Source: Salinigranum marinum
GTDB lineage: Archaea; Halobacteriota; Halobacteria; Halobacteriales; Haloferacaceae
Reading direction: 5' to 3'
Assembly: GCF_024228675.1 (NCBI RefSeq)
Contig: NZ_CP100461.1
Location: 62,001 to 126,000, forward strand
Length of the DNA stretch: 64,000 nucleotides
A model generated the notes under the pieces. That model was not told the DNA's origin. It searched no databases and saw only the letters and a program-made list of their open reading frames with translations. Position numbers and translations under genes: made by a program. How positions within the stretch are numbered: position 1 is the first letter of the stretch; each line of letters starts with the position of its first letter. Positions 59,670 to 60,569 of the stretch are shown piece after piece.

Positions 59670-60569
59670 ATGGAAACACCGCCCGACCGGTCCCGACGCG
59701 CGATGCTCTCCGCCACCGCACTCGCCGGCCTCGGTTCCCTGGCCGGCTGTCTCGGGTCGACGTCAGAGCTCCCGGCGGTCGCCGACGCCGCCGACCCCGC
59801 CGCGGCAGAGACCACGGCGCCCGCCGAGCAGTGTCTGACCGACTTCCTCGACGGCGCCAACGGCTCCGACGAGTACACGGAACGGTACGGGCCGGACGCC
59901 GAGCCAACGCTCGTCGTCGGCGCGAGTCCGGAGGGGACCGACGCACACGACGCGTTCGACCCCGTCGTCGCCCGCGTGGTCCCCGGAACGACCGTCTCCT
60001 GGCTGTGGACGGGATACGGCGGCCCGCACAACGTCGTCGCCCTCGACGGATCGTTCGACAGCGGTGAGCCGATCGACAGCAACGGCACGCACTTCGAGCA
60101 CACGTTCGCGGAGCCGGGCACGTACCGGTACGTCTCGGAGCCGGACCGAGACGAGGGGATGCGCGCCGTCGTCGAGGTCGCCGAACCGCCCTCCAGCGAC
60201 TATCCGGCGGTCGACGAGTGGCTCGTCAACGCCGACGGCTACGACGGGACGATCCCGGACCGCCGCGAGTACTCGACGGTGACGATCACCGTCGGGTCGG
60301 TCGCCGACAGCGACGCCCTCGACTTCGCCCCGCCAGCGGTGAAGCTCTCGCCGGAGACGACCGTCAAGTGGGTGTGGAGCGGCGACGGCGGGCCACACAA
60401 CGTCGCGTTCGAGGATCGCGACATCCGCCTCGACTCGTTCGAACCGGGCCCGGGCGTCCACTTCGAGCACACGTTCGAGGACACCGGCATCTACCGCTAC
60501 GCGTGTGAGCCCCACGAGTCGCTCGGTCAGCGGGGAGCGATCGTCGTCGAGGAACAGCAGGACGGCTGA
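59670..60569 (+). CDS. Two-domain cupredoxin (halocyanin-like) Tat lipoprotein with altered copper ligands
   Basis: A 299-residue protein. RSRRAMLSATALAGLGSLAGC is a Tat signal with lipobox. Domain 1 (about 60-170) keeps WTGYGGPHNVVAL with the first copper His, but where Cys and the second His belong it has YVSEPDRDEGM, i.e. Ser and Asp, retaining the Met. Domain 2 (about 185-295) has GGPHNVAF and YACEPHESLGQRG, with His, Cys and His but Gln in the axial Met position. Domain 2 could hold a type-1 copper with Gln as in stellacyanin; domain 1 probably cannot. Such proteins carry electrons on the outer membrane face. It has no obvious operon partner. Confidence 0.85.
   Translation: METPPDRSRRAMLSATALAGLGSLAGCLGSTSELPAVADAADPAAAETTAPAEQCLTDFLDGANGSDEYTERYGPDAEPTLVVGASPEGTDAHDAFDPVVARVVPGTTVSWLWTGYGGPHNVVALDGSFDSGEPIDSNGTHFEHTFAEPGTYRYVSEPDRDEGMRAVVEVAEPPSSDYPAVDEWLVNADGYDGTIPDRREYSTVTITVGSVADSDALDFAPPAVKLSPETTVKWVWSGDGGPHNVAFEDRDIRLDSFEPGPGVHFEHTFEDTGIYRYACEPHESLGQRGAIVVEEQQDG

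Follow-up and report, generated by a model that had tools for sequence, protein, structure and literature searches.

A haloarchaeal double halocyanin with a cysteine-less first domain and an axial glutamine in the second

Introduction

Changing the axial ligand of type 1 copper is a textbook way of setting its redox potential, mostly studied by mutation of azurin, whose Met121His variant is reportedly of type 1.5. Halocyanins are taken to be the one-electron carriers of haloarchaea (PMC8305020), and the Natronomonas pharaonis halocyanin P39442 is described with the ligands H110, C148, H151 and M156 (PMC517927). A 64,000-nucleotide stretch of the Salinigranum marinum genome (contig NZ_CP100461.1, here called the window) encodes a protein with two halocyanin domains, each of which departs from this His-Cys-His-Met set in its own way. 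The locus raises the question of what such a protein does: whether it is an electron carrier with one structural and one tuned domain, as a preliminary description of the sequence had proposed, or a copper protein of another kind, or a paralogue in decay.

Results

Two halocyanin domains behind a lipoprotein-like N-terminus

The gene divides into the following parts:

59670..60569, + strand: ATG-start open reading frame of the double halocyanin-domain protein (299 aa, P0001)
59670..59822, + strand: N-terminal part, residues 1-51, with a twin-arginine motif (SRRAML), a hydrophobic stretch, the lipobox LAGC (Cys27) and a low-complexity linker
59841..60179, + strand: domain 1, a halocyanin fold without type 1 ligands (TIGR03102, 86.3 bits, under the cut-off of 93.8 when scored separately)
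60210..60551, + strand: domain 2, a halocyanin domain with intact His-Cys-His (TIGR03102, 118.6 bits, over the cut-off of 93.8)

The NCBIfam halocyanin domain TIGR03102 matches the protein twice and the whole protein exceeds its curated cut-off (E 3.2e-59, 198 bits against 93.8), which makes it a member of the halocyanin domain family; the domains themselves are known halocyanin domains. A Pfam PKD match (PF00801, E 6.9e-6) at residues 101-152 lies inside the cupredoxin fold and was judged a weak overlap. Orthologues from the same genus are 73-74% identical to the protein, which starts METPPDRSRRAML. The combination of twin arginine, hydrophobic stretch and LAGC is what we take to be the Tat lipoprotein pattern; R9 and R10 are invariant in all ten aligned relatives, and the protein is a predicted Tat lipoprotein.

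An AlphaFold2 model made with a 70-row alignment reached a pLDDT of 85 and a pTM of 0.77, with pLDDT at or above 90 for 213 of 299 residues and mostly below 50 over residues 1-51. In this model VIA-align matches each domain to a solved plastocyanin: 90 residues of domain 1 superpose on 1bxu with an rmsd of 1.4 (Z 13.9), and 88 residues of domain 2 on 4dp0 with an rmsd of 1.2 (Z 13.1). Each is thus predicted to have a plastocyanin-like cupredoxin fold. As modelled, domain 1 is a conserved, well-predicted fold and no wreck. The best 60 sequence relatives listed from the PDB are led by plastocyanins, pseudoazurins and amicyanins and include no phytocyanin; TIGR03102 is the family that fits. Foldseek placed multicopper proteins in its top ranks, but only single domains fit: the multidomain matches of laccase or copper nitrite reductase type aligned domain by domain only (rmsd 11-18, TM about 0.2-0.3), and no solved protein among the matches listed matched both domains together. 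We therefore consider a two-domain laccase or nitrite reductase architecture unlikely. Matches by sequence and by structure both included 5fc9, the Nitrosopumilus purple cupredoxin, which has an open copper site and is a possible parallel to our protein.

Copper-ligand columns of the two domains

The residues at the ligand positions are:

60027..60029, + strand: His120, domain 1 first-His column, kept here (H in 37/69 family members)
60135..60137, + strand: Ser156 (codon TCG) in the domain 1 copper-Cys column (Ser in 66/69)
60144..60146, + strand: Asp159 in the domain 1 second-His column (family profile and MAFFT alignments)
60159..60161, + strand: Met164, domain 1 axial-Met column (Met 67/69, Leu 2/69)
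60396..60398, + strand: His243, domain 2 first His ligand (phmmer, family profile and MAFFT alignments)
60504..60506, + strand: Cys279, domain 2 thiolate ligand (the same three alignments)
60513..60515, + strand: His282, domain 2 second His ligand (His in 69/69)
60528..60530, + strand: Gln287 (codon CAG) in the domain 2 axial-Met column (the same three alignments)

These columns were checked in three ways, by phmmer against plastocyanin (for domain 2), by alignment to the family profile, and by an independent MAFFT alignment. The phmmer alignment puts Q287 under the axial Met of the Synechococcus plastocyanin 1bxu, and in the MAFFT alignment all 20 conventional halocyanin domains (20 of the 53 controls described below) have H, C, H and M opposite H120, S156, D159 and M164, and likewise opposite H243, C279, H282 and Q287. 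Domain 1 thus lacks the blue copper set, having His, Ser, Asp and Met, and domain 2 departs from it at the axial position, where Gln follows an intact His-Cys-His. The preliminary description had read both domains this way, with Ser and Asp replacing the Cys and His of domain 1 and Gln replacing the Met of domain 2, and alignment to halocyanins upheld these columns without placing a different Met or Cys in an axial or thiolate position. The only Met residues of the whole protein are 1, 12 and 164 and the only Cys residues are 27, 55 and 279. Met is thus absent from domain 2 and Cys from domain 1, ruling out that another residue of either kind serves the sites. The codons CAG for Q287 and TCG for S156 are identical in both same-genus orthologues compared, so neither residue reflects a sequencing error or a lone mutant.

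All 53 conventional halocyanin domains sampled from relatives, which were the top similarity matches to the window protein in 60 relatives and not a random draw, carry H-C-H-M. Cys, second His and Met are likewise present in each of the 12 further halocyanin-like domains that the window's own genome was found to encode. The changes in the two domains thus exceed what chance would give.

A subfamily with a varying axial residue

We built a family profile from ten full-length relatives and searched it in 391 genomes drawn from the larger haloarchaeal class. This gave 68 full-length matches (E 1.6e-88 or better) in 65 of the genomes by hand count, from groups f1, f4, f6 and f12; with one protein from a same-genus genome outside this sample they make up a set of 69 distinct proteins that includes the window protein. 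The preliminary description had thought of an unusual archaeal carrier; given this spread, the protein is not a one-off. In a sample of the phylum the family occurred in 8 of 196 genomes, all of them belonging by kinship to the window's own order. Named members include Haloplanus ruber and archaeon HArc-gm2, and a contig scan for named relatives returned five loci, two of them true family members. A plasmid copy in Haloplanus sp. GX21 (L233:7701-8738) looks broken: stops interrupt the frame near its start, and past the second His its sequence no longer follows the family.

The residues of the 69 proteins at the ligand columns are:

Domain 1, first His: H37 Q15 Y8 A4 R3 N1 E1
Domain 1, Cys: S66 C3
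Domain 1, second His: H31 D10 Q9 R6 N3 S3 T2 Y2 G1 E1, gap 1
Domain 1, axial: M67 L2
Domain 2, first His: H64 A3 T2
Domain 2, Cys: C64 S5
Domain 2, second His: H69
Domain 2, axial: M39 H12 Q10 A5 G3

Axial His is found in L022, for instance, and axial Ala in Haloplanus. We counted the fewest changes on a tree made by a quick search, with the ligand columns excluded and 24 of its 74 inner branches open. The axial residue of domain 2 changed at least 10 times (6 times as Met against the rest, 6 times as Gln against the rest) and the axial Met of domain 1 once; that is, the domain without a thiolate keeps its Met and the domain with a thiolate changes it. For domain 1 the minimum is 22 changes in the second-His column and 11 in the first-His column. 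One protein, L080, still has His-Cys-His-Met in domain 1 though it is placed among Cys-less members, which points either to a reversion or to Cys having been lost several times independently.

The set of 69 left out single-domain rows and 19 other double-domain proteins (scores 197-341). Five of these 19 also lack the axial Met in domain 2, so the swap is frequent in the family but not exclusive to it. In these five (L152, L154, L155, L157 and L158) the axial column holds Gly or Gln, and among those with Gly the second His is kept in one and replaced by Asp in three.

Genomic surroundings and axial codons

In the window, AIM24 and DUF7847 genes lie upstream of the gene, while a DUF3592 gene converges on it and a DUF6498 gene follows further out. 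None of the genes next to it there is a recognised respiratory or denitrification gene, the scanned neighbours being DUFs, AIM24 and family-less proteins. Positions 16001-52000 of the window have a GC content of 0.54-0.61, compared with 0.63-0.69 on either side, a drop that points to an island, inserted or foreign, adjoining the region of the gene. We surveyed the neighbours of 49 other loci with wider flanks together with the window, leaving out short-flank loci and naming each family from one example. Twelve of the 49 (L121, L126, L128, L163, L169, L113, L118, L138, L143, L164, L171 and L046) have a winged-HTH gene oriented divergently to the double halocyanin, in most of these followed by a gene for a DUF7521 membrane protein, which is present in 13 of the 49. 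Further out, the f4 loci carry a conventional single-domain halocyanin. The window has neither gene, so these neighbours support no function for its protein directly.

Such neighbours could suit a regulated sensor module. Domain 2 might be a copper-binding chaperone, buffer or sensor with no part in carrying electrons; Cys-His-His would hold Cu(I), and the axial position would be free because redox potential would not matter. The wide variation of the axial residue while His-Cys-His is kept agrees with this. However, a free position should accumulate one-step replacements, and each of the 30 non-Met axial codons of domain 2 (11 CAC, 1 CAT, 10 CAG, 5 GCG, 2 GGA and 1 GGC; not a count of events, as many were inherited together) is two to three base changes from ATG, with none of the one-step neighbours of Met (Leu, Val, Thr, Lys, Arg or Ile) among the 30 residues. 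As the window also lacks the winged-HTH/DUF7521 pair, we consider this explanation unlikely.

Selection on both domains

Ordinary degeneration is another alternative: a redundant paralogue would be losing its copper sites, beginning with domain 1 and now reaching domain 2, without gaining a new function. Apart from Met, the ligands of domain 1 have gone in many different combinations and the repeated changes in its two His columns favour relaxation there, the family is confined to 65 of 391 genomes, and five members have lost the Cys and first His of domain 2 as well. In pairwise comparisons of the window protein and two same-genus orthologues, however, dN/dS is well below 1 in both domains. 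Domain 1 has values of 0.22-0.35, which in all three pairs exceed those of domain 2 (0.08-0.22). Both domains are therefore under purifying selection in the genus, as judged from these sequences, and the family matches run full length without inner stops across f1, f4, f6 and f12. The axial column also departs from what decay would leave behind: Met and non-Met residues number 37 and 30 in Cys-containing domains versus 69 and 2 in Cys-less ones (138 domain instances from 69 related proteins, for which a Fisher p is a guide only and not a true probability). That non-Met residues are nearly confined to Cys-bearing domains, with Met retained where Cys was lost, and that none of their codons is one step from ATG, argues against plain decay.

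The replacement of the Cys is equally restricted. Ser is the only substitute, in each of 66 cases in domain 1 and 5 in domain 2, and in domain 1 it is encoded by two codon classes, TCN in 49 proteins and AGY in 17. The AGY set consists of one 15-member clade and a pair beside a Cys-bearing protein, and the AGY/TCN split suggests more than one independent Cys-to-Ser event in domain 1. Around its old copper end domain 1 has a strict motif, NVVA, FDSG and YVSEP, with F129 (100%), D130 (96%), S131 (100%), G132 (100%), E157 (97%) and P158 (94%) conserved among the 69 proteins; domain 2 and the 53 controls vary more at most of them, the Pro being kept in all three. We read this motif as an interaction surface. 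Taken with the dN/dS values, these patterns make simple degeneration quite improbable to us.

In the five members that have lost the Cys of domain 2 (L125, L127, L129, L131 and L139) it is replaced by Ser and the first His by Ala or Thr, with the frame intact and Met kept in both domains. Since both of their domains lack Cys, neither should hold type 1 copper, and copper would be dispensable in that branch.

Domain 1 might also bind a different metal, using His120, Asp159, Met164 and neighbouring groups, in which case the protein would carry two metals. In favour of this, His120 is retained in the window's genus together with Asp or Asn159. But with Gln, Tyr, Ala, Arg, Asn or Glu at the first His in 32 of 69 members, ten residue types in the second-His column and no consistent alternative ligand set, we think it highly improbable.

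Discussion

The reading that we favour, and consider probable, is that the protein is an exported, membrane-anchored halocyanin with one type 1 copper, in domain 2, and a copper-free domain 1 module, acting as a lower-potential electron carrier. It would be exported and lipid-anchored at the membrane, with the single copper held by His243, Cys279, His282 and the axial Gln287. Alignment puts Gln287 in the right column for a stellacyanin-like site, and its coordination is a prediction; we infer copper occupancy and type 1 character from the retained ligands. Domain 1 would be a halocyanin fold kept under selection without copper, probably as a docking or spacer module, its old copper pocket filled by Met164. 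Domain 2 would pass single electrons from a donor to an acceptor outside the membrane. The preliminary view of one structural and one tuned domain agrees with the missing thiolate of domain 1, the Gln and three strong ligands of domain 2 and the purifying selection on both, although a structural role is only one option for domain 1, whose conservation would also agree with an interaction surface.

Comparison with known proteins places the window protein among halocyanins. With P39442 (TIGR03102) it shares the domain family, a lipoprotein-like N-terminus and the Cys-x2-His-x4-axial spacing (C279, H282 and Q287 here), and it differs in having two domains, the first without Cys and the second with axial Gln in place of Met. 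Conventional double halocyanins such as L024 and L151 have the same two-domain layout, but both of their domains are H-C-H-M. A natural axial Gln like that of domain 2 is found in stellacyanin and umecyanin, in auracyanin of Chloroflexus, and in the T1Cu-N domain of TsNirK. Stellacyanin and umecyanin are plant phytocyanins, however, and TsNirK T1Cu-N is a nitrite reductase domain, and all four have families, loop lengths and fusions that differ from those of the window protein. Gln-axial type 1 copper is thus already described (PMC6400189, PMC11881046, PMC517927), and beyond plants in auracyanin (PMC517927) and in the Thermus NirK, TsNirK (PMC6400189).

Exchanging Met for Gln at type 1 sites lowers the potential. 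The M460Q mutation lowered the potential of a Thermus laccase from 357 to 258 mV (PMC6487685), M148Q lowered that of rusticyanin from 667 to 563 mV, and stellacyanin is given at 260 mV versus about 375 mV for plastocyanin (PMC11881046). Because axial Gln lowers type 1 potentials elsewhere, the window protein is best read as a lower-potential one-electron carrier, and by analogy its genus would have a stellacyanin-like domain 2 site roughly 0.1 V below the Met form. In the same laccase, axial Ala raised the potential to 409 mV and axial His gave 371 mV (PMC6487685). Gln is one of five natural axial states in the family, so the proposal that domain 2 is tuned to a low potential fits the window's genus, but the members with axial Ala and Gly do not fit a low-potential theme.

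A broader view of the subfamily, which we put forward tentatively and regard as doubtful, is that it is a natural counterpart of an axial mutagenesis series: once domain 1 had lost its copper and become a module for docking partners, domain 2 could specialise, and different lineages came to have Met, Gln, His, Ala or Gly, with copper centres of different chemistry. The axial mutants of azurin (M121X) and laccase (M460X) involve the same kind of replacement (Gln, His and Ala) but were engineered in the laboratory, whereas the swaps in this subfamily are natural and spread over related species. Our searches of the open-licence literature turned up no account of a halocyanin in which one domain lacks copper, or of such an axial series. 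If this view is true, the 12 axial-His members would be, to our knowledge, the first natural type 1.5-like cupredoxins of their kind, a search of the open-licence literature for natural axial His in cupredoxins having found nothing on point, and the axial site of the Ala and Gly members would be open and could bind small molecules, for example nitric oxide or nitrite. The subfamily offers one orthologous scaffold with five natural axial residues, and its chain includes a twin domain without copper as internal reference. It permits a direct test of axial swaps against changes of electron partner or habitat, as well as a test of what a cupredoxin domain does after it has lost its copper.

One relative occurs in Haloferax mediterranei. 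By sequence, WP_231512968.1 (E6P09_RS17010, on pHME505) is a family member outside the set of 69; its columns, read by eye from the translation, are Y-S-H-M in domain 1, and it differs from the window protein in having an axial Gly in domain 2. A halocyanin gene, hcpA, is described on pHME505 (PMC9240420) and is possibly the same gene. We looked for a link to denitrification through this species and dropped it: the main text of an RNA-Seq paper names neither gene 17010 nor hcpA, and a proteomics paper has no mention of hcpA. Haloferax mediterranei nevertheless provides a family member in a haloarchaeon that can be cultured in the laboratory.
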